Shown: positions 420-19,709 of the stretch, in pieces | Position numbering within the stretch: position 1 is the stretch's first letter | Layout: the number at the start of each line of letters is the position of its first letter | Virus record (IMG/VR): IMGVR_UViG_3300032156_001162 | Span: 1 to 24,098 of that record | Direction: 5' to 3' (one strand) | Length of the DNA stretch: 24,098 nucleotides | DNA from: a virus | Program-made: the position numbers and the translations under genes | Notes under the pieces: generated by a model | What the model was told of the DNA's origin: nothing | The model's database searches: none | Seen by the model: only the letters and a program-made list of their open reading frames with translations

Positions 420-519
420 TGGTGACAGGATCCGCTACCAGGTGGGGGACCTGTGTCGCCACGGTTGGTGACAGGATTGGCGACAGGTTTGACGGCCGGC
501 CGAGCTGCACCTGACACCA
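420..519. repeat. Two 42-bp inverted repeats (TGGYGACAG-N24-CTGWCRCCA type)
   Basis: Units lie at 420-461 and 478-519, each exactly 42 bp from the first T to the last A. Unit 1 begins TGGTGACAG and ends GTGTCGCCA; unit 2 begins TGGCGACAG and ends CTGACACCA. An extra left half-site lies at 466-474. The starts are 58 bp apart. They belong to the dispersed family found at gene boundaries throughout the genome and are inferred to be protein-binding sites. Confidence 0.7.
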
Positions 520-561
520 CATCGCAGGCATGGCGAGCTAGCCATGCCTGCGCGCACCGAA

Positions 562-604
562 GCGCGCGCCCGCATTTTTCATTTTTGATTATTGCGGGCG
601 CGCG
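562..604. terminator. GC-stem hairpin with T-rich loop, convergent region
   Basis: The arm GCGCGCGCCCGCA pairs with TGCGGGCGCGCGC, 13 base pairs, around a T-rich loop. It lies between the convergent integrase and the accessory block, so it could stop transcription from either side. It has the same plan as the hairpins near 345, 5310 and 10172. Confidence 0.5.
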
Positions 605-704
605 CGTAGGTGCGAAGAAAATTCTTCCGGCGGGTGGGTGGCCGGCTGATGCTGGGGGGGGGTGCGTGCCGGAGGCGGCGGCGCTGCCTCCTCCGGCGTG
701 GGTG

Positions 705-1127
705 CTACCAGCGGCGCTGGCGCTCTTGGTGGTGGTAGTACAGGCCAGAGATGCGAGCGGAGTCTGTGAGAGCGGCGGCGGTCTCCTCTAGTTGGTCGAG
801 CTCAAGCCGGAGTTTCTTGGCCTGGGCCGTGATCTCTTCGCGCCGCGTGTGGCGTTCGATGCTGGCGAGTGCTGCCGCGACGTTGTCGGGGTCGCTGCCG
901 ATGTACTCGCGCTTTCGGGTGCCCTGCCAGGTGGGGTGGATCAGGTACAGGTACTTGGCCTTTCTCCAGTAGGCGCTGGCGGGGGTGGTGCCCTGCTGGC
1001 TCAGGTCCTGGGCTGCGGCCTCTAAGCCGTCGATCTCGACACACAGGGTGTCGAGGCGGTTAGCTGCGGCGGCCAGGGATGCGTTGACGTCGGCGCGCTG
1101 TTTCTCGGTGGTCGTCTGGTTTGCCAT
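705..1127 (-). CDS. Hypothetical coiled-coil protein, 140 aa
   Basis: The protein has two predicted helical, Ala/Leu/Glu-rich flanks (about 10-45 and 90-125) around a compact middle with YLIHPTWQGTRKREYIG, which may bind nucleic acid but matches no family I recognise. The start ATG at 1127 is preceded by AGAGGAG on the coding strand. It overlaps the end of the upstream gene by 68 bases. It is the last gene of the leftward accessory block, and the convergent hairpin region lies beyond its stop. The function is unknown. Confidence 0.75.
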   Translation of the reverse strand: MANQTTTEKQRADVNASLAAAANRLDTLCVEIDGLEAAAQDLSQQGTTPASAYWRKAKYLYLIHPTWQGTRKREYIGSDPDNVAAALASIERHTRREEITAQAKKLRLELDQLEETAAALTDSARISGLYYHHQERQRRW

Positions 1128-1296
1128 GGCTGGTTTTCTCCTCTCTAGGTCCTGAGACCTGCATCGTGAGCTTGCCGTCGATGTGTTGTAGGATGACGAT
1201 TCGGTTTTCTCTGAGGGCTGTCTCGATGTAGCCGTTGTTGTCTGTGACGTCTCCGCTGAGCCACAGTGGGCGGCTTAGTCCTCGGCGTGTTCTCAT
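1060..1296 (-). CDS. Hypothetical small protein, 78 aa
   Basis: The start ATG at 1296 has a good AGGAGG site, and its first bases overlap the stop of the upstream gene (ATGA). The N-terminal part, with GDVTDNNGYIETALREN and IVILQHIDGKLTMQV, looks like a small beta-alpha fold. The C-terminal 25 residues are Arg-rich and overlap the next gene, so they may be weakly constrained. No family is recognised. The tight translational coupling argues that it is real. Confidence 0.6.
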   Translation of the reverse strand: MRTRRGLSRPLWLSGDVTDNNGYIETALRENRIVILQHIDGKLTMQVSGPREEKTSHGKPDDHRETARRRQRIPGRRS

Positions 1297-1484
1297 GGTT
1301 GGGCCTCCTGGTTTGGTTGGTCTGGCTCTAGTCCTGCCAGGCGTGGCTGTAGTTGTCGCAGTAAACCGTGGTTGTCGCCAGCACACCGGCACTCGCAGAT
1401 CGGGCCGCGCGCTGCTACGCATCGAGGGTGACAGGCGTGAGTCTCTAGCAGGGTTCTTATGTAGCCTGTGGATTGACGTCTCAT
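1293..1484 (-). CDS. Cys-rich mini-protein, putative zinc binder, 63 aa
   Basis: Start and stop both overlap neighbours by ATGA junctions (1481-1484 and 1293-1296), which strongly supports this short frame. The centre contains CHPRC followed by ICECRCAGDNHG, a CxCxC...HG cluster typical of small zinc-binding proteins. The C-terminus is Gln/Pro-rich and likely disordered. It sits among several other small zinc-type proteins in this block. The exact role is unknown; DNA or protein binding is inferred only from the metal-ligand pattern. Confidence 0.65.
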   Translation of the reverse strand: MRRQSTGYIRTLLETHACHPRCVAARGPICECRCAGDNHGLLRQLQPRLAGLEPDQPNQEAQP

Positions 1485-2080
1485 TGTTGGGCCTGCTGTT
1501 CTAGGATCTCTCCTGTTTCGGGGTCCACCGGTGGCGGCGTGCCGTTGTCTGGCGGCTGCCACGTGGCCTCCTGGATGCGGCTGTAGTACGTCATCGTTTG
1601 CCACGCCTGGATGTGGATCAGGATCGCCAGGCTCATCGCGCGCGCGTGCTCCCACGATAGGAGGGTGACCACCTTCGCCTGGGGGCTGCCGGTCTTGGGT
1701 TTGATGGCGCCGGCTGTGCCTGCGGGTTCACCTGGCCCGTTGGTGATGGTGAGCCGGATGGGGTTGGCGGTGCCCTCGACGAGCTCAAGGCTCATGGTGC
1801 GCGCGTCCATGTCGGCGCCTTTCTTGGTGCCTTTGTACTCGGTCTGGCCGTGCCACCAGGGGTTGGCGACGGGGCGGTGCAGGATGTCGAAGGCCAGCAG
1901 CGCCGCTCGCTGGTGGTCCATGTAGTGGGTGACTGAGACGGCTGCGCCCTTGCCCTTCTGGTACTCGGTTAAGCTGAATGCGACCTTGCCGAGTTTGAGA
2001 GCGTCCTCGACGGTGAGTATCCTCGTCTTTGTGACTAGGCGGTAGATGCGGTATTGGCGCGGCTTATAGGTGGCTGTCAT
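1481..2080 (-). CDS. Hypothetical protein, 199 aa
   Basis: This is the largest of the unknown proteins in the distal accessory block. The start ATG at 2080 has an AGGAGG site and overlaps the upstream gene by 17 bases. The sequence begins with a basic, Tyr-rich segment and has a predicted alpha/beta core with HYMDHQRAALLAFDILHRP and a later helix SWEHARAMSLAILIHIQAW. It ends in a Pro-rich tail. In many accessory blocks such proteins are DNA-metabolism accessories, but no motif here proves that. I do not recognise the family. Confidence 0.75.
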   Translation of the reverse strand: MTATYKPRQYRIYRLVTKTRILTVEDALKLGKVAFSLTEYQKGKGAAVSVTHYMDHQRAALLAFDILHRPVANPWWHGQTEYKGTKKGADMDARTMSLELVEGTANPIRLTITNGPGEPAGTAGAIKPKTGSPQAKVVTLLSWEHARAMSLAILIHIQAWQTMTYYSRIQEATWQPPDNGTPPPVDPETGEILEQQAQQ

Positions 2081-2321
2081 TGGTCTCCTCCTGTTCTGTG
2101 CGCTGGCGCGCTCTCGCGGTCATCCAGCGCTTGATGTCTTCTAGTTCCATGCAGACGATGCGGCCTTCCTGGGCGGGGGCGGGTCGGTCGTGGTCGTCGT
2201 GTTCGTCTTGGGCGTGTAGGCGGTCGATCTCGCGGTCCCAGGAGTGTTCGTCGTTCTCGTCGCGGTCCCATCGGTTGAAGTCGTCGATGGGTTGTTGGTA
2301 GGCTTGCCATGCGGTGGTCAT
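2064..2321 (-). CDS. Hypothetical acidic protein, 85 aa
   Basis: A strongly acidic, Asp/Glu/His-rich small protein with DRDENDEHSWDREIDRL in the first half and a helical end with MELEDIKRWMTARAR. Small acidic phage proteins are sometimes DNA mimics or inhibitors of host proteins; that is only a possibility here. The start ATG at 2321 overlaps the upstream stop by ATGA and has a GGAGA site. The C-terminal end overlaps the next gene by 17 bases. Confidence 0.7.
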   Translation of the reverse strand: MTTAWQAYQQPIDDFNRWDRDENDEHSWDREIDRLHAQDEHDDHDRPAPAQEGRIVCMELEDIKRWMTARARQRTEQEETNDSHL

Positions 2322-2563
2322 GATCTTGTCTCCTTTTCGTTGTCGGCGTCAAGCGGTTCGTGCTTGTAGTCTCTGACGATCGCGTATGCCTCGCTGAGTT
2401 GGCGCGCGGCGGTCTGGCAGAAAGTGGCGGCGAGCATGAGCATCACGCGGTCGATGGGGGCTGCTGCCTGGTCTGCGAGGTTGTTGACCATCTGGCGGCT
2501 GTCGGCGGCGTCCGCTTTGGCTATGAGGATTTGGTCGGTGGCGGTGTTGGCGGTTGTTGGCAT
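2318..2563 (-). CDS. Hypothetical helical protein, 81 aa
   Basis: The start ATG at 2563 follows a clear AAAGGAG site. The protein is almost entirely predicted alpha-helix, Ala-rich, with ADAADSRQMVNNLADQAAA and MLAATFCQTAARQLSEAYA, so it could form a small helical bundle or dimer. It lies directly after a SWIM zinc-finger gene and before an acidic protein, in one leftward operon. No family is recognised. Confidence 0.7.
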   Translation of the reverse strand: MPTTANTATDQILIAKADAADSRQMVNNLADQAAAPIDRVMLMLAATFCQTAARQLSEAYAIVRDYKHEPLDADNEKETRS

Positions 2564-2566
2564 GTG

Positions 2567-2896
2567 CTATCTCCTTTCGTCGGGTGCGTCGGGGGGTTCG
2601 GGTTCGTCGTTGAGCCGGCAGAACATCTCGACGGCAAGTCGGTGTTTGCACAGGCGGCCACGGTTGCGGCGGTTGTCGGGGCAAGCGCAGGTTTTGGCGG
2701 TGCGGTCTACCAGGTAGGCGACGTGCTCTCTGTGTTCTGAGGGCACCAGCCAGAGCCGTGAGGTTCGGCTGGCGGGCCTGGGCGGGTCGTATCGCACGAT
2801 GGCGGCGGCGCTGTTGAGCGTGTCGGCGAGCTCCGGACGGCGTGCGGTGCCGGTGACTACCAGTCGGCGCAAGTCCAGCTGCGGGGTTGTGCTCAT
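2567..2896 (-). CDS. SWIM zinc-finger protein, shorter paralogue, 109 aa
   Basis: The start ATG at 2896 has a GGAGACA site. The C-terminal half carries CACPDN followed by LCKHRLAVEMF, the CxC-xn-CxH pattern of SWIM zinc fingers, which bind DNA or protein partners. The N-terminal part (RLVVTGTARRPELADTLN and SRLWLVPSEHREHVAYLVD) is clearly related to the upstream 147-residue protein, so the two are tandem duplicates. SWIM domains accompany helicases, transposases and recombination proteins; the role of this stand-alone version is unknown. Confidence 0.8.
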   Translation of the reverse strand: MSTTPQLDLRRLVVTGTARRPELADTLNSAAAIVRYDPPRPASRTSRLWLVPSEHREHVAYLVDRTAKTCACPDNRRNRGRLCKHRLAVEMFCRLNDEPEPPDAPDERR

Positions 2897-2910
2897 TTTT
2901 CGTGTCTCCT

Positions 2911-3354
2911 TTACCACATGAGCGCCAGATAAGGGCACTGCGCGGCCTCGATGCTGAGCGATTGGCGATGCCAGTCCAGGCCAGGGGCCGGGCCTGGATC
3001 CTGCGCTGGCTGCGGGTCGGGCTCGGAGCACAGGCGGCAGATGATCTCCACCGCGAGCCGATGTTTGCACATTCCGGCGGGCGCGCCTCGGGGGGGCCTG
3101 TCGGTGCCATTGGCTCGCCAATTTGCGTGCTGCCTGTAGTCTGGGCACGTGCAGGTGCCGTTGAGCCTGTCTACCAGGTAGAGGACGCGCTCTCGCTGGC
3201 ACGACGGCACGTGCCACAGGCGGCTGTCTCGGTTGACCTTGTGCGGCGGGTCGGTTCGCAGGATGTCGGCGGCGCGTTCTAGCCTGGATGCCAGGGCCGG
3301 TTTTCTGGCGGTGCCTTCCTGTACCAGGGCGGCGATGGTCTGCGGGCTACTCAT
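2911..3354 (-). CDS. SWIM zinc-finger protein, longer paralogue, 147 aa
   Basis: This is the longer of two tandem SWIM proteins. It begins with ALVQEGTARKPALASRLERA, has SRLWHVPSCQRERVLYLVD, and then CTCPDYRQ and GMCKHRLAVEI as the CxC and CxH zinc ligands. A longer loop separates the ligand pairs than in the neighbour, and there is an extra 35-residue Pro-rich tail. The start overlaps the upstream gene by 8 bases and uses a GAGGAG site. Duplication and divergence inside one operon suggest two binding specificities or a heterodimer; this is inference. Confidence 0.8.
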   Translation of the reverse strand: MSSPQTIAALVQEGTARKPALASRLERAADILRTDPPHKVNRDSRLWHVPSCQRERVLYLVDRLNGTCTCPDYRQHANWRANGTDRPPRGAPAGMCKHRLAVEIICRLCSEPDPQPAQDPGPAPGLDWHRQSLSIEAAQCPYLALMW

Positions 3355-3562
3355 TTTTTGTCTCCTCTTCGTTGTTGTGCCTGCGCCTCGGCGGTTGAGC
3401 CGCCACGGCCAGGGCTGCCAGGTGCCAATCGTAGGGGCGCGCTGTCCTCACGGCCGCGCGGATCGCTGCGCCGGTGCCACCATCGCGGCGGGCTGCTCTT
3501 GCCACCAGGGGCGCGAGGGCCGCGCCTGTGCCTGTCGTCCAGGGGTCGAAGCGACCGAACAT
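3347..3562 (-). CDS. Hypothetical small protein, 71 aa
   Basis: The start ATG at 3562 has an AAAGGTGG site. The protein is Ala-rich with an N-terminal MFGRFDPWTTGTGAALAPL and a charged tail ending NNEEETKNE. It is short and lacks a recognisable motif. Its stop overlaps the start of the longer SWIM gene, which fits translational coupling. About 100 bases separate it from the SLOG-like gene upstream. Confidence 0.6.
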   Translation of the reverse strand: MFGRFDPWTTGTGAALAPLVARAARRDGGTGAAIRAAVRTARPYDWHLAALAVAAQPPRRRHNNEEETKNE

Positions 3563-3664
3563 TGCGAACCACCTTTCTTACTTGGCGCCACCATGGGCGC
3601 AGATGACCAGGGCCATAAGAGACCACGAAAGCGAGCGGGCCCACTGGGCACGCGAGCGACGGCG

Positions 3665-4423
3665 CTAGAAGAGACGCGCCTGGAGGGGCGGCGCGGGAAC
3701 CCAGCGCCACGACGGCGACCAGAGACCACAGCAGGAACAGGGCGACCAGGAGCCACCGGCGGCGAGAAGAGGCGGCGGGCCAGCAAAGGCGGCCAGCACG
3801 AGCACAGGCAAACCGAAGCCAGCAGCGAGGCGGCACGACAGGAGAGAGCCACGCGAGAGCGGCGACGCGAGAAAGCAGACCAGAGAGCCGCGCCCGCCAC
3901 CGAGACCGCAACCGGACGCCACGGCGGACACCAGACAGGCGGACCGGCGCGCGAGCCGCACCCGAGCCGGCAGGGACGGAGGACCCCCCGCCGACCACAC
4001 GACGGAGGCGCCAGCAGCGACGGCGGCGAGGACGGAGGGCACCGAAGAGACCGGCGCGACCGCACCCGCGCCGCCAGGGCCGAAGACGGCAAAGACGCGC
4101 AGCAGCAGGAAGACGGCGGCAGCAGGCCGACCGGAGAGCCACGCGAGCGCCGCCGACAGCACCGCCTGATCAGCGCCGACGGAGCAGCCGACAGCGACGG
4201 AGAGGCCAGAGCCGAGGAGAGAGCGGACCACCGGGCCGACGCGCGCGCCGAGCGCACCGGAGAGAGAGCGAGAGCCGACAAGAGCCACGACACCGGACGG
4301 AAGAGGCAGAGCAGCCACGGACGGAACCCCCCAAGTGTTGAAAGCGGCAAAGGCCACCGCGAGCCACCCCCCCCGGGGCCCCGACGCCTTTGACACCTGG
4401 GGAAACCCCACCGGGGGGAACAA
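3665..4423 (-). CDS. SLOG-like Rossmann-fold protein (DprA/YspA-like nucleotide binder)
   Basis: Near residues 45-90 the sequence has VVALVGSRSLSG, then SLLGSGLSVAVG followed by CSVGADQAVL. This is the GSRs...G(A)xGAD signature of the SLOG superfamily, which also contains DprA/Smf and binds nucleotides or nucleic acid. A later segment with AAGFGLPVLVLAAF fits the final Rossmann strand. The first codon of the frame is TTG and its ribosome site is poor; a GTG start within the first 25 codons is equally possible. The coding strand is extremely pyrimidine-rich, unlike its neighbours, so it may have a different origin. The ligand is unknown. Confidence 0.6.
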   Translation of the reverse strand: MFPPVGFPQVSKASGPRGGWLAVAFAAFNTWGVPSVAALPLPSGVVALVGSRSLSGALGARVGPVVRSLLGSGLSVAVGCSVGADQAVLSAALAWLSGRPAAAVFLLLRVFAVFGPGGAGAVAPVSSVPSVLAAVAAGASVVWSAGGPPSLPARVRLARRSACLVSAVASGCGLGGGRGSLVCFLASPLSRGSLLSCRLAAGFGLPVLVLAAFAGPPPLLAAGGSWSPCSCCGLWSPSWRWVPAPPLQARLF

Positions 4424-4565
4424 CCTTTTTTTGCGCCCCGGAAATGAGAGAAGGGCGCAAGGGCGTTTTTTAGCCCCCGCTTTTTAGGGGGGCTGGCCCC
4501 TTGCGCCCTGAACGCCGGGGCGCAGACTTTGTTGTTCCCCCCCGGGTCTTGGGGTTTTCCCCAGG
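4396..4565. repeat. Nested imperfect palindrome of about 170 bp
   Basis: The outer arms are 4396-4441 and 4515-4565. The left arm reads CCTGGGGAAA...AACAACC...GCGCCCCGG and the right arm is its imperfect reverse complement. Inside are AAGGGCGCAAGGG (4451-4463) against CCCCTTGCGCCCT (4497-4509), and AGCCCCC (4472-4478) against GGGGGCT (4488-4494). The left outer arm overlaps the start of the SLOG-like frame. It could be a strong transcription barrier, a control structure at that gene's start, or a cruciform; no classical T tract follows the inner hairpin. Confidence 0.7.
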
Positions 4566-4948
4566 TTTTGATCAGATGTTGCGGGCCGTAGGCCCGCTCC
4601 ATAGCTAGAGATGTGAGACGAAGTGGCGATGGTGTGCGGTGATCGAGCTTGGTGGTGGAAGCCGGCATCGTAAGATCGTTTGACGGACCGCACCGTTGTC
4701 GAGGGACGGAGTGTGCTTGGTGGTGGAGCCGCGACTGAGATGTTTGAGGAAGTGGCCTGGGTGTGGGGCGAGCGGGCTTGGCGTGTGTGGGCGCTGTCGG
4801 TTTCTTTTTTGGAGAACGAGTGGGGGGTGACTGGCTGCGGGCGCGAAGCAGGCGGCTTTGTCGCCTGCTGATCTGGCTGCGCGTAGTGCAGCCAGCGCGC
4901 CCGCATTGCGGTGCATGGAGAGTGGCCGTTGGTGGGTGTTGTCTTTGT

Positions 4949-5055
4949 CGGCTGCTCAACATAAAGCTTTTATGTTGAGGCTCGCGGAGGGAAGCCGAAG
5001 GCCTTTTCGCACTAATAGCGTTAGTGCGAAGAGCCGGAGCGAGCCGGAGCAGCCG
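4949..5055. repeat. Structured element, copy A (branched, cruciform-like)
   Basis: Outer stem P1 pairs 4949-4957 with 5047-5055, nine perfect pairs. Inside are hairpin P2 (AACATAAA/TTTATGTT, 4958-4976), stem P3 (GGCTCGC/GCGAGCC, 4979-4985 with 5039-5045) and hairpin P4 (5006-5015 with 5021-5030). Copy B at 13650-13760 has the same plan with compensating changes in P1 and P4. The single-stranded stretch GGAGGGAAGCCG is conserved. The element ends exactly at P1. Which strand is active is not known; all neighbouring genes run left. Confidence 0.75.
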
Positions 5056-5063
5056 ACGGGCGA

Positions 5064-5201
5064 TGGTGACGGGATCCGGCGGAGATCTCGGCTGCGGGTA
5101 GCCATGGGGTTTGGTGACGGGGTTTTGGTGCACCAAGCGGCGTGAGTCACCATGGGGCGTGGTGACAGGTGCAGCTCGACCTGGCGGGGTGGGCGTCGCC
5201 A
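5064..5201. repeat. Array of three inverted repeats with exact 48-bp period
   Basis: Units start at 5064, 5112 and 5160, each 48 bp apart, and are 41, 41 and 42 bp long. All begin TGGTGAC; the right ends are GTAGCCA (degenerate), AGTCACCA and CGTCGCCA. The first unit contains GGATCC and AGATCT. The array lies just right of structured element A. Even helical spacing suggests cooperative binding of one protein. Confidence 0.65.
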
Positions 5202-5298: not shown

Positions 5299-5307
5299 GC
5301 GAGTGCG

Positions 5308-5352
5308 GCGGGCCGTGTATTATTGTTGATTATTGGCCCGCCGCACGGTGTG
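5308..5352. terminator. GC-stem hairpin with AT-rich loop, after tail gene
   Basis: The arm TGCGGCGGGCC pairs with GGCCCGCCGCA around a 20-base loop with TATTATTGTTGATTATT. It lies about 45 bases beyond the stop of the leftward tail gene, so it may end the structural transcript. There is no T tract. Confidence 0.55.
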
Positions 5353-5395: not shown

Positions 5396-7537
5396 CTACC
5401 TGGCGGAGAGCTGCACTCGCTGTCGCCAGACGAGTTGAGGCTTGGTGGTGTCGAAGGTCTCTTCAATGCCTCTGACGCGGTAGACCTGTGACGTCACGCC
5501 GGCCCTGGCGTCGGTGATGGTGACGGCGTCCAGTAGCTGGAGGCCGAGGTTTGGTAGGGTCTCGATCTGGCCCCTGGTCTTGGTGGCGTCGTGCTTGCGT
5601 AGCTGAGCCACGGCTCGGGCGTCACACTCGGCGTTGGTGTCATAGGCGTAGTCGAAGATTTTCTGGAGGCGGTGTCCGACCAGGTTGATCTCGGTGTAGT
5701 CTACTTCGTCTCCAAAGACGGGGATGGCGTAGGCGTCCATGGTGGAGAACACTTCGATGTGGTTGTAGCCTGGGGTGCGGACTCCGTACCTGCCGGCGAT
5801 GATGACGTGGTTGGTGGCGCCGCCGTAGGTGTAGTCGCTGGCCTCGGCTGCGGCGAGTTGCTTGATGTAGGGGGTGGAGCCCTCCCAGTACACGAAGTCG
5901 GGTACTTTGGAGAGGACCTTGAGGACGGCGCCTCGGAGGTCCTCGCCTGGCAGGATGTTGATTGCCGGCTCGAGGGTGCCGATGACGGTGGAGGCCTCGC
6001 CTGCGCTGGCGAGCTCGAAGCCGGCGAGTGCGAACAAGCGTTCTGCTATGGTCCAGACTGAGGCTTCGCCGTCGGTCCATAGGTACTGCCTCTGAGCCGC
6101 CATCGATGCTAGGAGTCCCCAGCCTCCGATGAGGTAGAGTACCAGGTAGGATTTGCCCTCGAAGTCGGCGACGTACTCCCAATCTTCGATCCAGAAGGTG
6201 GGCCAGTCTGCGTACTGGTTGCCGGTGGTGGTGTGGTAGCCTCGGCGGAGCTCGAGCATGGAGCCGCGCTTGACGGCGATGTAGGTTCCGGAGCCGAGGG
6301 TGTTGAGGGCGCCGTCCTGGTTGTCGAGCCATATCTCGCCTTCCATGTCGGCGGTGACGTTCTGGCCGTAGTCTTCGGATACGCCGGCGCCTTTCCAGCC
6401 GGACCACCTGTCGAGGATCCTGTACTTGAGGAGCCTGGCTCCGAGGTCGACGGTGCCGTCGCCGGCGGCCTTGGCTCGGTAGGCGCGGTTGGAGTGGGAG
6501 GCGTAGACGTAGCCGTCTCCGGCGGCGCGGTAGTCGGTGACGCTGCCGTAGGTGCCTGCGAGTGCGAGGAAGGGCGAGGGGTCGGTCCACGTGGTTTCGA
6601 GGAAGGTTGCTCCGTAGATGCCTTGCATGCGTAGGAGCCTGGAATACTCCTCGCCTTCGAGGTAGGCGGAGAACACGGCGCGGAACATATCGACGTAGGT
6701 GAGGGACGGCCAGGCGGTGGCGAAGGCGGTGCCGGTGTCGGTTCTTTCGAGCAGGACCGGGTTGGCCCAGGTGTCTAGGGTGACGTCTACTCCGGTGCCG
6801 AAGGCGATGGCGTAGAGGGTCCACACCCAGGCGAGGCCGGCGCTGAGGCCGACACCGAAAAACGTGTAGGCGTCAACGTACGCTCCGTAAAGCATGTTGT
6901 AGTCGCCGGTCTTGTGGCAGGTGAGGCCTCGGATTTGCTGACAGGCGGTCTTGCCCCAGGCGGTGGCGGCGCCCCAGGCTCCGGCGGTCTGTTTGCGGTA
7001 GTAGAGGTGACAGGTGGCGTTGACGGCGGTGTCCCTGGTGGAGTAGAAGACGATGGCGTCTGTGCCGGTGCGGTGGGCGGCGGTGATGCTCTCTAGTTGG
7101 TAGGTGCCGGTGGCGGTGTGGACCGTGGTCGTGGCTCCCCAGGTAGCGCCGTAGTTGGCGCTCTCACGGCAGTAGAGGAGGAGGTTGGTGGCGGAGATGT
7201 AGAACCACCAGACCTTTGCTCCGGAGGTGCAGAGGGCCATCTGATTCATGGTCGAGCATGTGCCCATGCCTGCGGTCCAGGCGGTCCACTGGGCGGGGGT
7301 GGTGGGTGAAGTGATGCGCTGGTATTCGGCGGCGCCGGCGTTGCTGCGGACCCTGACGATGGAGTTGTCGGTGCAGATGATCATGGCGTGCGGGTAGTCT
7401 GCGGTGGCGTCGGTGTAGAGCTCGGCCCAGGTGAGGCGCTGGTGTGGTCCTAGCTTGTCTGAGACCAGGACCTGGAAGATGGGTTTGGTCCTGGCCTTCT
7501 TCTGAGCGACTAGTAGGGCTGCGCCGATGTCTAGCAT
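5396..7537 (-). CDS. Large tail / tail-tip protein, 713 aa
   Basis: The ATG at 7537 is chosen because GGAGG lies five bases upstream; the frame stays open to an ATG at 7627, but that part lies in a repeat. The first half has recurring Trp/Tyr-rich blades (for example TWAELYTD, TYVDMFRAVFS, GYVYASHSNRAYRA) like a beta-propeller or other all-beta repeat. The second half has EDWEYVADFEGKSYLVLYLI and later RLQKIFDYAYDT and VYRVRGIEETFDTT, the style of phage tail-tip or hub proteins that carry host-binding domains. It is the last gene of the structural operon. The role in adsorption is inferred from position and size. Confidence 0.7.
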   Translation of the reverse strand: MLDIGAALLVAQKKARTKPIFQVLVSDKLGPHQRLTWAELYTDATADYPHAMIICTDNSIVRVRSNAGAAEYQRITSPTTPAQWTAWTAGMGTCSTMNQMALCTSGAKVWWFYISATNLLLYCRESANYGATWGATTTVHTATGTYQLESITAAHRTGTDAIVFYSTRDTAVNATCHLYYRKQTAGAWGAATAWGKTACQQIRGLTCHKTGDYNMLYGAYVDAYTFFGVGLSAGLAWVWTLYAIAFGTGVDVTLDTWANPVLLERTDTGTAFATAWPSLTYVDMFRAVFSAYLEGEEYSRLLRMQGIYGATFLETTWTDPSPFLALAGTYGSVTDYRAAGDGYVYASHSNRAYRAKAAGDGTVDLGARLLKYRILDRWSGWKGAGVSEDYGQNVTADMEGEIWLDNQDGALNTLGSGTYIAVKRGSMLELRRGYHTTTGNQYADWPTFWIEDWEYVADFEGKSYLVLYLIGGWGLLASMAAQRQYLWTDGEASVWTIAERLFALAGFELASAGEASTVIGTLEPAINILPGEDLRGAVLKVLSKVPDFVYWEGSTPYIKQLAAAEASDYTYGGATNHVIIAGRYGVRTPGYNHIEVFSTMDAYAIPVFGDEVDYTEINLVGHRLQKIFDYAYDTNAECDARAVAQLRKHDATKTRGQIETLPNLGLQLLDAVTITDARAGVTSQVYRVRGIEETFDTTKPQLVWRQRVQLSAR

Positions 7538-7549
7538 GGGAGCCTCCGG

Positions 7550-7601
7550 TGGTGACAGGTCGTGCTCGAGCGGATCCCGATCTGAGGGTGGGCTGTCGCC
7601 A
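7550..7601. repeat. 52-bp inverted repeat, long class
   Basis: Begins TGGTGACAG and ends CTGTCGCCA. It shares the internal 20-mer CTCGAGCGGATCCCGATCTG with the 52-bp unit at the end of the portal gene (18294-18345). It lies 12 bases upstream of the tail-protein start codon and just outside its ribosome site, so it could influence that gene. Confidence 0.75.
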
Positions 7602-10092: not shown

Positions 10093-10110
10093 GGTCCCTC
10101 CTGTGTTGGT

Positions 10111-10152
10111 TGGCGACAGGATCCGGCCACGTGGGCGGGACGTCTGTCGCCA
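10111..10152. repeat. 42-bp inverted repeat, perfect arms
   Basis: TGGCGACAG and CTGTCGCCA are perfectly complementary; relative to the consensus both arms carry the matching change (T to C, A to G), as expected if symmetry matters. It contains GGATCC. It lies upstream of the lysin start. Confidence 0.75.
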
Positions 10153-10169
10153 TGGGTGAGCCTCCCAGC

Positions 10170-10213
10170 GCGGCGGGCCTTGTATCATTTTGGGTTATTG
10201 GCCCGCCGCGCGG
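10170..10213. terminator. GC-stem hairpin with AT-rich loop
   Basis: GCGCGGCGGGCC pairs with GGCCCGCCGCGC, 12 pairs, around a 20-base loop with TATCATTTTGGGTTATT. It is flanked on both sides by 42-bp inverted repeats. It lies downstream of the tiny membrane-protein gene and upstream of the lysin, so it probably limits read-through into the lysin. Confidence 0.55.
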
Positions 10214-10299
10214 TGGTGACAGGTCAGCGGATGATCAGCGGATCCGCTGTCGCCAGTTGGCGTCAGCATCGATGGTGGCCACCGCGATCGGTGTCACCA
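10214..10299. repeat. Two adjacent 42-bp inverted repeats
   Basis: Units at 10214-10255 (TGGTGACAG...CTGTCGCCA) and 10258-10299 (TGGCGTCAG...GTGTCACCA), two bases apart. The second covers the stop codon of the 51-residue gene at 10294. The first has an inner AGCGGATCCGCT palindrome. Confidence 0.65.
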
Positions 10300-12927: not shown

Positions 12928-12970
12928 TGGTGACAGGATGATCACTGGCAGCCGGCAGTGACTGTCACCA
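12928..12970. repeat. 43-bp inverted repeat with perfect arms
   Basis: TGGTGACAG and CTGTCACCA are perfectly complementary, and an inner TCACTG/CAGTGA pair is nested inside. It fills the whole gap between the adaptor stop (12971) and the terminase start (12917). Confidence 0.75.
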
Positions 12971-13618
12971 CTATATCTCCTCTCTGGTGTCGGGGCGCTT
13001 CCAGCCTTCGGTGCGCTTGTCTAGTTTGAGGGTCTCGGTGGCCTTGAGCTGGCGGAGTTTCTCGGCGAAGTGGGCCATGCGGTCTTTGCCCCACGCTTCC
13101 CAGTGCTTGGGGGTGTCGGTGGAGATGCCGGCCTGGACGACTGAGGAGCGGGCTTTCTCGAGGGCGGCGTAGGCCCCGGCTCCGAAGGTCACGATCTCCT
13201 CGTCCTCGGGTGCGACGCTGGTAACGGCGGTGGAGCCTGCCAGGTCGTGGATGGTCTGCGGTGTGGTGTAGTACACGCGGATGACTTCGGCGATGGCGGG
13301 GACGTTGCCGTCGAGGATGCGGAGGGTGCTGCCCCAGTGCTCGAAGCGCCTCCACTCGGGCGGGTCCTCGGGGTTGGCGGCGGTGTAGGGGTGCCAGACG
13401 CGCACGACTCGAATGAGGCTGGTGAGGGTGGTTAGAGACTGTTCGCGGGTGGCGGCGGCGACGGTGATCGTGCCGGTGATCTGCTGGGGTCTGACGTGGC
13501 TGTAGTCTGAGAGGGCGCGCTGGATGGCACGGTCGATCTCGGCGGTGGTCCACGTGTCGGCTGCGGCGTCGTCGAGGTCGGCTTGGACCAGGAGTCGGAG
13601 TGCTAGAAGCTCGCTCAT
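12971..13618 (-). CDS. Head-tail adaptor / connector protein, 215 aa
   Basis: The N-terminal pattern (VQADLDDAAADTWTTAEI followed by DRAIQRALSDYS) is the usual opening of head-tail connector proteins that dock onto the portal: a helix, a WT-x-x-E-ID turn and a second helix. The middle part is beta-rich and the end is helical (ALEKARSSVV, HFAEKLRQLKATET). It lies directly upstream of the terminase. No classical ribosome site stands out; the gap before it holds structured element B. The connector function is inferred from pattern and position. Confidence 0.7.
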   Translation of the reverse strand: MSELLALRLLVQADLDDAAADTWTTAEIDRAIQRALSDYSHVRPQQITGTITVAAATREQSLTTLTSLIRVVRVWHPYTAANPEDPPEWRRFEHWGSTLRILDGNVPAIAEVIRVYYTTPQTIHDLAGSTAVTSVAPEDEEIVTFGAGAYAALEKARSSVVQAGISTDTPKHWEAWGKDRMAHFAEKLRQLKATETLKLDKRTEGWKRPDTREEI

Positions 13619-13649
13619 GCTGTGTGCTCCTTGGCTGGTGGGTGAGGTA

Positions 13650-13760
13650 GCGCCCTGCTTAACATAAAAGGTTTATGTTGAGGCTCGCGGAGGGAAGCCG
13701 GAGGCCTTTTCGCACTATGGGCCATAGTGTGAAGAGCCGACGCGAGCCGTAGCAGGGCGC
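13650..13760. repeat. Structured element, copy B
   Basis: Outer stem GCGCCCTGCT (13650-13659) with AGCAGGGCGC (13751-13760), ten perfect pairs; hairpin AACATAAA/TTTATGTT (13661-13679); stem GGCTCGC/GCGAGCC (13682-13688 with 13742-13748); and hairpin 13709-13720 with 13722-13733, 12 pairs including one G-U. The inner 88 bases align without gaps to copy A (4958-5045), while P1 and the P4 tip differ by compensating changes. It occupies the gap between two virion genes. It may act as an RNA in the leftward transcript, a processing site, or a DNA cruciform. Confidence 0.78.
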
Positions 13761-13772
13761 GGCGGTGGGCGG

Positions 13773-14042
13773 TCATCGGTAGGCTACCGTGACCTTGGGA
13801 GCGGTGCCGGTGATGGTGGCGTAGAGGCCGACGCCAAAGGCGACGTCGAGGCGGGCGGTGGTGGAGAGGCCGGCTGCGGCTGCCAGGGCGATGATGCTGT
13901 CACCTGCGGTGGCTACTTCGTCTCCGAGGACGATGGTTGCGGCGTCGGAGCCTCCGGTGAGGGTGACGGTGTGGATGACGCCAGGGCCGGTCTTGATGAG
14001 GGCGCTGGCTGCCAGGTAGCTGTACTGGTAGATCTCGGGCAT
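13773..14042 (-). CDS. Small virion-type beta protein, 89 aa
   Basis: The sequence is beta-strand-rich with VIHTVTLTGGSDAATIVLGD and a repeating Ala/Thr pattern, like many small decoration or tail-fibre accessory proteins. The start ATG at 14042 has AGGAGG upstream. It lies between a baseplate-type protein and the adaptor. The exact function is not known. Confidence 0.65.
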   Translation of the reverse strand: MPEIYQYSYLAASALIKTGPGVIHTVTLTGGSDAATIVLGDEVATAGDSIIALAAAAGLSTTARLDVAFGVGLYATITGTAPKVTVAYR

Positions 14043-15758: not shown

Positions 15759-15856
15759 TGGTGCAGCGGGCCACGCTCAAGTTGATGGCCATGTGTGGTC
15801 GCTGTCACCATTGTTGGTGACTGGGGCCCCGCGAGCTGGCGGGACCTGTGTCACCA
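15759..15856. repeat. 52-bp and 42-bp inverted repeats before the capsid stop
   Basis: The unit 15759-15810 starts TGGTGCAGC and ends CTGTCACCA (52 bp). The unit 15815-15856 starts TGGTGACTG and ends GTGTCACCA (42 bp) and stops one base before the capsid stop codon (15857-15859). Both size classes occur here side by side. Confidence 0.65.
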
Positions 15857-17896
15857 CTACGCGACGTTGGACTTGTGGAGCGGACGGTAGTCCGCGACAC
15901 CTACGGCGACGAAGAAGCGGCACTTGATTCGCATCTCGTCGTTGGTGAACATGGAGCCCACGGTCTGATCGTCGGCTAGGAATAGCTCGGGCTCGCGCCC
16001 GTACCTGTACCCGATGCAGATGCCGGGGCAATCGTTGGGGTCGCACACCGCGGCCCAGTTGTTGGGGTCGGTCCACTCTGGCACGACCACGACTCGGCCG
16101 CTGCCTGCCCTGGGCTCGAGGTAGTGGTACGTCGCTTCGACGGACCACGGCTGCTCGAAGATGCTGAGGGCCGTCCTCTCAAGCTCGATGGGCACCAGGC
16201 AGAACTGCGGGCGGATGGCAAGCGGGGCGCTGGACGTGGGCTCCGTCTGCTGGTACACGGCCTGAATGACGGCGTCCCAGGCTGCGGCGCTGAGGGCCGT
16301 GGTGAGGAGGTTGACGTGGTTGGTGGCGTCGAACACGTGGTAGTTGTCGGTCATGAGAGGGCCTGTGCCCGAGTCGGAGGTGAAGAGGGCGGAGACCAGG
16401 GCCGAGAGTGTGCGCCAGGCTGCGTTGCCGAGCTCCCTCGGGATGCGCTTGACGGATCCCACGTCGTCGCGGTCCATCATCTCGAGGGTGATGCCGATGT
16501 AGCCGCCCTTCTTGAGGAAGGTGCCTGTCTCCTCGTTGTCCGACCAGTCCAGCTCGGTGTAGGCGCCGCCTTCGGCCACGGTGGGCAAGGCTCCGATGCC
16601 TCCGCTCTTCATCCAGGTGATCGTGTTGAGGTTGCCGAAGTCCTCCTCGTGGGCGATGGAAGCCCACCACCTGGGCCGCACGTTGTACGCCTGCAACAGG
16701 ACCTTGTTGAGGGCGTTCTTGACCACGGAGGTCATCGATGCCGTGGTGACGTTGGCGAGCTTGACTCTCTCGGGGTAGAAGCGCCCGTAGAAGTCGTGAT
16801 CTCCCGTCATCATGAGGTAGAGCTCGCGGATGCCCGACAGCCTGGGGATGTCGGACTGAGCGTCCGGGATGGGCAGGCCCATGAGACGGTCGAAGGCGAA
16901 CTGTACGCGGTCCATGCTGCTGAGCATGCCAGAGGCGCGGGCGCCGTCGATGGCCTGGCCGGCGCCGGTGATGACCTTATCTTCCAGCATGCCGGCTAGC
17001 ATGGTTCGGTAGCGCTTGATCTCGGCGTCGAGGGTGTCTGGTGCAAAGGCGCGGCCTGCGAACTGCGCTCTGATGGCGTCCTTCATCGGTTGCGGCAGGT
17101 CGCACCAGGTGAGAGCACCGTCTAGCACGGTCTGACATTGGGAGCGCAGCAGGTCTTGAGCCTGCTGTGCCGCCGCGTCCATGGCGGCTGCGGTGTTGAT
17201 GGCCGCGCTTGTGGAGTCGGCTTGCGCGGCGTGTCCGAGTTGGACGTCCTGTGTGACTCGTGTCTCCTCGGCCCTGGGGGGCGTCGAGGCGGGCGGCGAG
17301 TCTGGCGGCTGTGCCCCTGGATTGGTGGTGGTTTCGTCCTTCATGGTACTTCCCCCTTTCATGGAGTTGAGGACGCGATCGAACGCCCCGCCTGCGGCGG
17401 GGTCGAACACAACATCAACGGACTGCACTCTGCGGATCTCGGTCGCGACTCTGGTGGAGCCGTCCATGTAGTAGCCGGCGTAGAGGTCCGCTGACAGTCC
17501 CACATTTGGCACAGGCAATCCCTCCTCTCGGTCTGAGATGATCTGGTCGAGTAGGTACTCGAGCCAGTCTGCGGCTGGTGTGCGGTTGAGGGCCAGGCGG
17601 CCGGTGAGTGCGCCCGAGGGTGTGACGGCTTGGTCCCAGGCGACGTCGGTGATCACCCCCGCGAGGTCCTTGATGCTCGGGTTGGCGTCCTGGAAGAAGC
17701 CTGGCTGCACGTGGTCGACGAAGCAGGCGGCCCCTTGGAAGCGGGCGGCTGCTGTCTGTAGCACCGATGGCGGGAAGTGCCACCGGTGGAGGGTGGGTCC
17801 GGCCTTGATGATGGTGATGGCGTAGTTGGGCTTGGCCGTGAGGTTGGACGCGAAGGTGAGTTGGATTCGCTTCTCTTGCGGCTCTGTGGCGCTCAT
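15857..17896 (-). CDS. Prohead protease-major capsid protein fusion, 679 aa
   Basis: Residues 1-180 look like a capsid maturation protease: FVDHVQPG (His62), GLSADLYAGYY (Ser135) and VQSVDVVFDPAAGGAFDRVL, the final strand typical of prohead proteases. A Thr/Pro-rich linker (about 180-225) and a helical delta-like region follow. From about 340 the sequence resembles gpT-type major capsid proteins, with YTELDWSDNEETGTFLKKGG, DRDDVGSVKRIPRELGNAAW and HVFDATNHVNL. Protease and capsid are usually separate genes; the fusion may cut itself. The start ATG at 17896 overlaps the upstream stop (ATGA). Confidence 0.82.
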   Translation of the reverse strand: MSATEPQEKRIQLTFASNLTAKPNYAITIIKAGPTLHRWHFPPSVLQTAAARFQGAACFVDHVQPGFFQDANPSIKDLAGVITDVAWDQAVTPSGALTGRLALNRTPAADWLEYLLDQIISDREEGLPVPNVGLSADLYAGYYMDGSTRVATEIRRVQSVDVVFDPAAGGAFDRVLNSMKGGSTMKDETTTNPGAQPPDSPPASTPPRAEETRVTQDVQLGHAAQADSTSAAINTAAAMDAAAQQAQDLLRSQCQTVLDGALTWCDLPQPMKDAIRAQFAGRAFAPDTLDAEIKRYRTMLAGMLEDKVITGAGQAIDGARASGMLSSMDRVQFAFDRLMGLPIPDAQSDIPRLSGIRELYLMMTGDHDFYGRFYPERVKLANVTTASMTSVVKNALNKVLLQAYNVRPRWWASIAHEEDFGNLNTITWMKSGGIGALPTVAEGGAYTELDWSDNEETGTFLKKGGYIGITLEMMDRDDVGSVKRIPRELGNAAWRTLSALVSALFTSDSGTGPLMTDNYHVFDATNHVNLLTTALSAAAWDAVIQAVYQQTEPTSSAPLAIRPQFCLVPIELERTALSIFEQPWSVEATYHYLEPRAGSGRVVVVPEWTDPNNWAAVCDPNDCPGICIGYRYGREPELFLADDQTVGSMFTNDEMRIKCRFFVAVGVADYRPLHKSNVA

Positions 17897-18290: not shown

Positions 18291-19709
18291 CTATGGTGAC
18301 AGTTTCTTCTCGAGCGGATCCCGATCTGGCGGGGCGCTGTCACCATCGCCAGCGCCCCCCTCAATGGGGTTATCGGTGGGTTGGACTCCGGCCTCTTTGA
18401 GGTCACGCATCATGGCTTCCACGTCGATGATCTCACCTGCGAACTTGTAGGCAAGCTCGATGGCTTTGCGGTCGGTGATCCAGCCTAGACTCTTGAGCTG
18501 GCGCAGGTATTCGACAATGGTCTTGGCTGCTCGAGCGACCTGGAAGCTGTCTTGCTCGCGGAGGGCCGAGACGGTGTAGTTGAGTTGAAGGCCGCGGGGC
18601 GCGCCGGGTTCTGTGGCGCGGGGGTAGTGGAGTCTGCCGAGGATGTGGGCGCGGTGTGCTGCCTTCTCTACGACGTCCACGATCATGTCACAGAAGAACT
18701 TTTGTCGGTGTTCGTAGTGGCGCATGGTGGGGCTGGTCATCTCGGCGGCGGTGGCCCTGGTGGCGCTCTCGGCCTCTGCTAGGTAGTGCAAGGGGACGCC
18801 GGCGCCTGCTGCGATCATGAGCCTGAGTGCCTTGCCGTCGGCCTCTACGTCCTCGGCGTGGATCTCTGGCTGGACGGGGGTCCAGTCTTCGTTCTCGTCG
18901 GTGACGATGACGGAGCCTGGGGATGGCGGCTCGGTGTACTGAGCCTGTTTGGCTAGGATGTCTGCGGTCTGTGCGCCTTGGAGTTTGACGTGCCAGAGAA
19001 AAGCGTTCTTGTAGCGGTTGACTCGTACTCGGTCCTCTAGCCATTCGCGATACCTGCGGAGCCAGGGCAAGAGGGGCGTCAAGTCTGACTGGCCTCGGAT
19101 GCAGCCGACGGGTCTGTTGATGGCGTAGTGCAGGATGGCGGGTTGTGTGGCGTCGTCCTTCACGGCGTCCCAGGCGTCCCACCACTTTCCGTTGATGGGG
19201 TCGTCGTCTCTGAGCTCGTGGTAGCGGAGCTCTTTCTCTAGGTCCTCGGGGTCTGTCTCGATGCGGTCTATCTTGACGGCGTTGATGGCTCGGAAGTAGC
19301 TGAGGCCGTCGGCGGGGTTGGTGTAGAGGATGATGAAGAGGTCGCCGGCGCGGGTCAATTCCTCGCACCAGGTGTAAAGGCGGAGGTGTAGCTTGTTGAG
19401 GCGGTGGGTCCAGAGGTCGGAGACGAAGCGGTCCACGGCGGGGGCCTTGGAGGTGACCTGGACGCCGGCGCCGACTACGTAGTCGGTGGTCAGGCTGACG
19501 ATGCGGAAGGCGAGGGGGTTTGTGCGCCACGCCTCAAGTGCATCGTCGAGGTCCGTCTTTAGCTCCCACCACTTTTTGTCCTGGGGCCCTGCGGCTCCGC
19601 CGACTTGGCGCCACCACTTGTCGTCGATGACCTTGACGGCGTTCTGGATGCGCTGCTCTATGAGTGAGCCGAAGAGTCGGTCTGCGATGCGGTCCCTGAT
19701 GGCGGTCAT
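18291..19709 (-). CDS. Portal protein, 472 aa
   Basis: Typical portal segments include DYVVGAGVQVTSKAP near 80, GCIRGQSDLTPLLPWL with REWLEDRVRVNRYKN (about 203-235), and GVPLHYLAEAESATRATA with TSPTMRHYEHRQ (about 305-335), the conserved clip/stem region. It forms the ring at one capsid vertex through which the terminase moves DNA. The start ATG at 19709 overlaps the upstream gene by four bases. The last 17 or so residues (DRDPLEKKLSP) are encoded by a 52-bp dispersed repeat, so this end was probably acquired. Confidence 0.88.
   Translation of the reverse strand: MTAIRDRIADRLFGSLIEQRIQNAVKVIDDKWWRQVGGAAGPQDKKWWELKTDLDDALEAWRTNPLAFRIVSLTTDYVVGAGVQVTSKAPAVDRFVSDLWTHRLNKLHLRLYTWCEELTRAGDLFIILYTNPADGLSYFRAINAVKIDRIETDPEDLEKELRYHELRDDDPINGKWWDAWDAVKDDATQPAILHYAINRPVGCIRGQSDLTPLLPWLRRYREWLEDRVRVNRYKNAFLWHVKLQGAQTADILAKQAQYTEPPSPGSVIVTDENEDWTPVQPEIHAEDVEADGKALRLMIAAGAGVPLHYLAEAESATRATAAEMTSPTMRHYEHRQKFFCDMIVDVVEKAAHRAHILGRLHYPRATEPGAPRGLQLNYTVSALREQDSFQVARAAKTIVEYLRQLKSLGWITDRKAIELAYKFAGEIIDVEAMMRDLKEAGVQPTDNPIEGGAGDGDSAPPDRDPLEKKLSP
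18294..18345. repeat. 52-bp inverted repeat inside the portal 3' end
   Basis: TGGTGACAG and CTGTCACCA are perfect complements 52 bp apart, ending directly beside the portal stop codon (18291-18293). It shares CTCGAGCGGATCCCGATCTG with the unit at 7550-7601. Both copies translate in one frame to a similar DRDPLE-containing peptide, though only the portal copy is coding. Confidence 0.78.

Follow-up and report, generated by a model that had tools for sequence, protein, structure and literature searches.

A covarying five-helix non-coding element, possibly mobile, in the intergenic slots of small phages

We analysed a 24,098-nt stretch of viral DNA (the window), which has a 127-bp direct repeat at both ends and so may represent a circular genome of about 24.0 kb. 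The window encodes a serine integrase (from 22774 on the + strand through the end), a portal, a capsid protein, an SU10-type adaptor, an amidase and a terminase, the last recognized through an annotated terminase with 32% identity. The structural genes lie on the − strand. Two copies of a branched element occupy non-coding DNA: copy A between a tail gene (stop at 5396) and an early-module open reading frame (ORF) whose upstream end is at 4423, and copy B between two − strand genes, one at 14042–13773 and the adaptor gene at 13618–12971. The features are as follows.

4930–4938, + strand: TGGTGGGTG, shortly 5′ of copy A P1
4947–5057, + strand: copy A, whole element (five-helix fold; orthologous copy in the related phage L006)
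4947–4956/5048–5057, + strand: copy A, P1
4957–4965/4969–4977, + strand: copy A, P2
4979–4986/5038–5045, + strand: copy A, P3
4987–4993, + strand: copy A, joint GAGGGAA from P3 to P3b, unpaired except for a possible 2-bp GG/CC step
4994–4996/5000–5002, + strand: copy A, P3b
5003–5015/5021–5033, + strand: copy A, P4
13619–13776: slot-B insert of 158 nt containing copy B, between the − strand genes 14042–13773 and 13618–12971
13650–13760, + strand: copy B, whole element
13650–13659/13751–13760, + strand: copy B, P1
13660–13668/13672–13680, + strand: copy B, P2
13682–13689/13741–13748, + strand: copy B, P3
13690–13696, + strand: copy B, the corresponding joint from P3 to P3b
13697–13699/13703–13705, + strand: copy B, P3b
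13706–13718/13724–13736, + strand: copy B, P4

The original prediction placed two copies of one branched element at these positions, and both a covariance model and BLAST recover them there. With the covariance model, exactly two sites in the window score strongly (118 and 116 bits); the next best reaches 17.7 bits, and there is no third copy. The inner 88 bases were said to align without gaps; the BLAST alignment is ungapped over an even longer stretch of 101 nt (4952–5052 versus 13655–13755, 86% identity). The predicted common branched plan is indeed shared, but it has a fifth helix: the small GCC/GGC hairpin at 4994–5002 (P3b) had been overlooked or merged in the four-helix plan. Likewise, one P4 pair is swapped on both sides between the copies as claimed, while the number of swapped P1 pairs is four instead of three. 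The swap quoted as an example, from G-C at 4951:5053 to C-G at 13654:13756, is correct, and the joint GGAGGGAAGCCG is identical in A and B.

Searching 2.9 million viral contigs with sequence patterns and with protein anchors yielded four further full copies in related uncultured phages (L006, L007, L008 and record G007, the last comprising L015/L040), together with one 3′ fragment in L008. The L006 copy (13701–13590) is orthologous to copy A and has the same flanks, and in L005 the stretch around copy B (13640–13770) is identical at 131 of 131 positions. Copy number is low, at one or two per phage. The element was not found in relatives L009, L010 and L011 or in more distant relatives, and the covariance model returned nothing from 71 loci (nearly all from a second terminase search, and mostly belonging to more distant relatives) or from 15 whole records. 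A DNA similarity search of phage, plasmid and E. coli collections found none. Pattern matches in L012, L016, L017, L018 and L043 arose by chance and are not copies. A candidate seventh copy (L008 18023–17923) was reduced to the 3′ fragment mentioned above, its 5′ part being abiEii coding sequence; the fragment is fused to a truncated abiEii gene.

We compared the folding of the A and B stretches (116–117 nt) with that of dinucleotide shuffles and obtained z-scores of −6.1 and −7.1 on the + strand and −8.1 and −6.5 on the − strand; a single-stranded DNA model likewise places the element well below the shuffles (z about −8). Over the six full copies, the structure has 44 pairs in five helices, with 95.5% standard pair cells, and RNAalifold arrived unprompted at a nearly identical fold. 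Two-sided changes occur in 14 of the 44 pairs (six in P1, two in P2, two in P3, one in P3b and three in P4). None of the covariation measures was reached in any of 500 shuffles, and controls with slid partners gave at most two two-sided pairs. Across the same six copies the multibranch joints are conserved (identity 0.83–1.00; mean pairwise identity 0.90 for GAGGGAA and 0.87 for CCGR), and the hairpin tips are near random (0.36–0.42). Loss of the pairs in additional copies, which the original prediction had counted against itself, was not seen; the further copies retain them. With 14 two-sided changes, conserved joints and unconstrained hairpin tips in six copies, the data support well its central claim that the secondary structure is under selection. 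Covarying stems together with conserved joints are what is expected of a structured RNA, and a folded single strand of DNA would look alike.

One reading of this signature, usual for functional RNAs, is that the element is a structured phage RNA, either a small RNA or an intercistronic cis-acting element of the late mRNA (acting in processing, stability or antitermination), which ordinary recombination among phages has duplicated and moved around together with intergenic cassettes. We hold this to be a serious possibility, though short of probable. It gains from P3 of the L008 and G007 copies, where G.A/A.G stands in place of a T-A/C-G step. The surrounding sequence is CGAG/CGAG, in which tandem G.A pairs are known to be stable, and such pairs are of a kind common in RNA. 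An Rfam search argues the other way: with gathering and permissive thresholds it returned nothing credible (best 24 bits versus a threshold of 72), and in Rfam, at least, the earlier failure to recognize a known family holds.

The closing helix P1 keeps its pairing while its sequence is free, with two-sided changes in six of its nine pairs. Copy B and the L008 copy even differ in P1 length, by a matched 3 bp in both arms (GCGCC-CTGCT versus GCGCC-TCC-CTGCT). Template switching turns imperfect palindromes into perfect ones (PMC7202029, PMC3820800), and a functionless palindromic repeat could have its arms kept complementary by such quasipalindrome correction during replication; the matched change would arise more easily if one arm were copied than from two separate indels. 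We consider this explanation of the whole element unlikely, as it does not account for joints far more conserved than hairpin tips or for a five-helix plan kept at unrelated slots. The same correction may nevertheless help to hold P1 perfect.

The two strands are distinguishable. Read on the + strand, the non-Watson-Crick stem cells are seven G.T (from about five events) and two A.C (both in doubtful pairs), and the + strand folds better than the − strand in all six copies. The asymmetry of stem changes rests on about five events; together with the better folding, we counted it as support for a folded + strand.

The element's genomic distribution shows filled and empty slots. The slot-B insert leaves both neighbouring genes intact, and its left part provides the AAGGAG ribosome-binding site of the adaptor gene starting at 13618. 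Slot B is filled in the window and in L005. It holds no insert in L006, L042 and L024, where the genes overlap by ATGA, in L041, which has a comparable junction, or in L007 and L008, where the genes abut; L006 lacks the insert although its terminase DNA is 92% identical to that of the window. Conversely, L007 and L008 alone have the element in the slot between adaptor and terminase genes; in the window, L006, L024, L041 and L042 that slot lacks it. A third slot, upstream of the early-module ORF, is filled in the window and L006, and the G007 copy lies near the same ORF. The element is dispersed, a property that the original prediction missed. Empty slots in close relatives and a truncated copy demonstrate insertion, or gain and loss, and the element is therefore not simply a conserved two-copy RNA gene. 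Many relatives lack it and most orthologous slots are without it, which also argues against an RNA needed by all these phages. Recombination does occur in the clade, as the structured-RNA reading requires: the identity between L005 and the window, slot-B insert included, ends near 14.6 kb, so that L005 is a recombination mosaic with the window.

We also considered whether the copies' own divergence records movement. The L007 and L008 copies, which share one slot, are 71% alike, compared with 84–90% for their genes. This discordance is weakened as an argument for movement by a tree of the copies, in which vertical descent inside that slot is not rejected (p-AU 0.26) because the tree is too short. 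The case for movement therefore rests on the filled and empty slots.

TCAT is present at both edges of the slot-B insert (13615–13618 and 13773–13776), as a target duplication would be, and the other slots show no evident duplication of this kind. TCAT is also required if two overlapping genes are to stay intact, and selection could have kept it. The sequence TGGTGGGTG precedes copy B (13636–13644) as it does copy A, and it precedes the G007 copy as TGGTGGGGT; TGGTGGG occurs five times on the + strand of the window, with two of these at the element's 5′ flanks. TGGTGGGTG may be part of the element or its target.

All copies in or behind the structural operon have one orientation, in which the better-folding strand is antisense to the genes. 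The shared reading direction of the copies inside the operon, and their position following a stop codon, would suit a structured RNA. The antisense placement of the better strand with respect to the late genes speaks against one, as does the lack of a promoter-like site nearby: a scan restricted to sigma-70-like promoters found none near A or B.

Taken as a whole, the data show a non-coding element of about 110 nt (about 150 nt with flanks) with a five-helix branched fold in a clade of small temperate phages. Our leading but tentative reading is that it is a non-autonomous, fold-dependent element that moves between intergenic slots and persists as a folded + strand, probably of single-stranded DNA. 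Selection on a folded strand is what is left because a MITE with fixed ends is unlikely and quasipalindrome correction leaves the conserved joints unexplained. A classical transposase reading fixed terminal repeats is disfavoured because P1 varies widely yet stays paired. We infer that single-stranded DNA handled by a host enzyme is somewhat more likely than an RNA function, with RNA close behind, because the better strand is antisense to its neighbours and no promoter-like site was found.

In the proposed mechanism, the element would be recognized as the folded + strand of DNA, which could become accessible at the replication fork, or when the phage enters a cell, excises or recombines. Movement would then occur in trans, by a host enzyme from outside the phage, as HUH (IS200/REP-type) enzymes act on hairpins. 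Neither a Y1/HUH transposase (PF01797) nor a reverse transcriptase (PF00078) was found in the six phage records. We counted against the mechanism this lack of a mobilizer in the phage records, the low copy number and the absence of a target rule beyond the possible TCAT; the conserved core, moreover, is equally expected from a functional RNA.

Several known systems offer comparisons. REPs and REPINs are short, intergenic, palindromic and dispersed, and are thought to be moved in trans after recognition as single-stranded hairpins (PMC8266576, PMC3116915). The element shares the first four properties, but it is much larger, has five helices and is present in one or two copies per phage rather than the hundreds typical of REPs. 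No GTAG or similar motif stands directly 5′ of a 20- to 50-nt hairpin; GTAG does occur in five of the six copies, but 3′ of the P3 3′ arm and overlapping P1. The RAYT (TnpA-REP, Y1) gene is likewise absent from the six phage records. Mitochondrial double-hairpin and repetitive hairpin-forming elements are mobile hairpin cassettes found across intergenic slots (PMC2800124, PMC4478555), over which the element is similarly scattered. Unlike them, it is branched and resides in bacterial phages, and whereas the sponge mitochondrial elements have conserved stem sequence and variable loops, here the stems covary and the joints are conserved.

The element resembles MITEs in being short, non-coding, non-autonomous and located at sites that are empty elsewhere, but where MITEs end in inverted repeats whose conserved sequence a transposase recognizes, it has a terminal helix that keeps only its pairing. 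The PeSL cassettes of T4-type phages are mobile intergenic stem-loops that carry regulatory signals for the next gene, including an early promoter. The element is comparable as a putatively mobile intergenic stem-loop cassette in phage genomes, with no counterpart to the early promoter among sigma-70-like sites, the one promoter type covered by the scan. A derivative of a retron, group II intron or DGR would call for the reverse transcriptase that these records lack. The element operates like dispersed elements that are read as hairpins, yet it fails the REP and MITE features tested; a new, unnamed family among hairpin-forming dispersed elements is its best classification. It is possible, though we would not call it probable, that this is a new branched nucleic-acid family with a functional multibranch core and a sequence-free closing helix, either spreading between phage genomes by its fold or acting as a mobile cassette that carries an RNA function of the phage.

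A further alternative is that the element is a dispersed repeat of the host chromosome that phages picked up passively, as other palindromes in the slots appear to have been. L010 (3504–3890) and L042 (10193–10360) carry TTCGACAAGCTCAGGATGC-type palindromes, which belong to other repeat families, in the same intergenic slots, suggesting that the slots accept many cassettes. In addition, G007 looks like a prophage whose host has PEP-CTERM/GEVED proteins, and the G007 element sits between a tRNA and the phage genes. Two exact patterns had no match in 84,980 species genomes, a search in which diverged copies are missed and the host is perhaps unsampled. We regard a host origin as unlikely.

The element is a compact natural case in which the fold, rather than the sequence, appears to be kept while its place in phage genomes changes. 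If mobile, it is an element read by its fold and without fixed ends; if an RNA, it is an undescribed phage RNA. A covariance model built on the six copies can be used directly to find others, and the bases to mutate are those of the conserved joints. More generally, many of the clade's intergenic slots contain palindromic cassettes overlooked by annotation.

Other repeats are present in the window. Dispersed repeats of the TGGTGACAGG...CCTGTCACCA type occupy many slots (417–513, 7550–7601, 10108–10158, 12929–12969, 15812–15862 and 18294–18345), and GGTGACA occurs 13 times on the + strand, compared with about 1.5 expected from composition. These repeats are possibly an operator, a stoperator or another family of palindromic cassettes. 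Four hairpins (347–381, 553–614, 5302–5350 and 10167–10215) have variable G+C-rich stems and similar AT-rich loops (ATTATTGTTGATTATT); in these too, pairing seems to be kept while the sequence is free.

The early module is inverted as a whole in G007 (L040 4687–11849) relative to the window (about 493–5186) and L006; inverted repeats of 28 nt (493–520 and 5159–5186) border it in the window. The region 3358–5136 is GC-rich and has long overlapping open frames on both strands. The frame 4423–3665 (− strand) has a G007 homologue (about 49%) and no Pfam match; by eye, its product reads like a Rossmann/SLOG-type protein. The G007 contig (L040 1–3500) carries PEP-CTERM/GEVED genes and a tRNA-Arg(TCT) beside the phage end, and G007 additionally has two C5 methyltransferase-like genes, an HNH gene and an HhH-GPD glycosylase.
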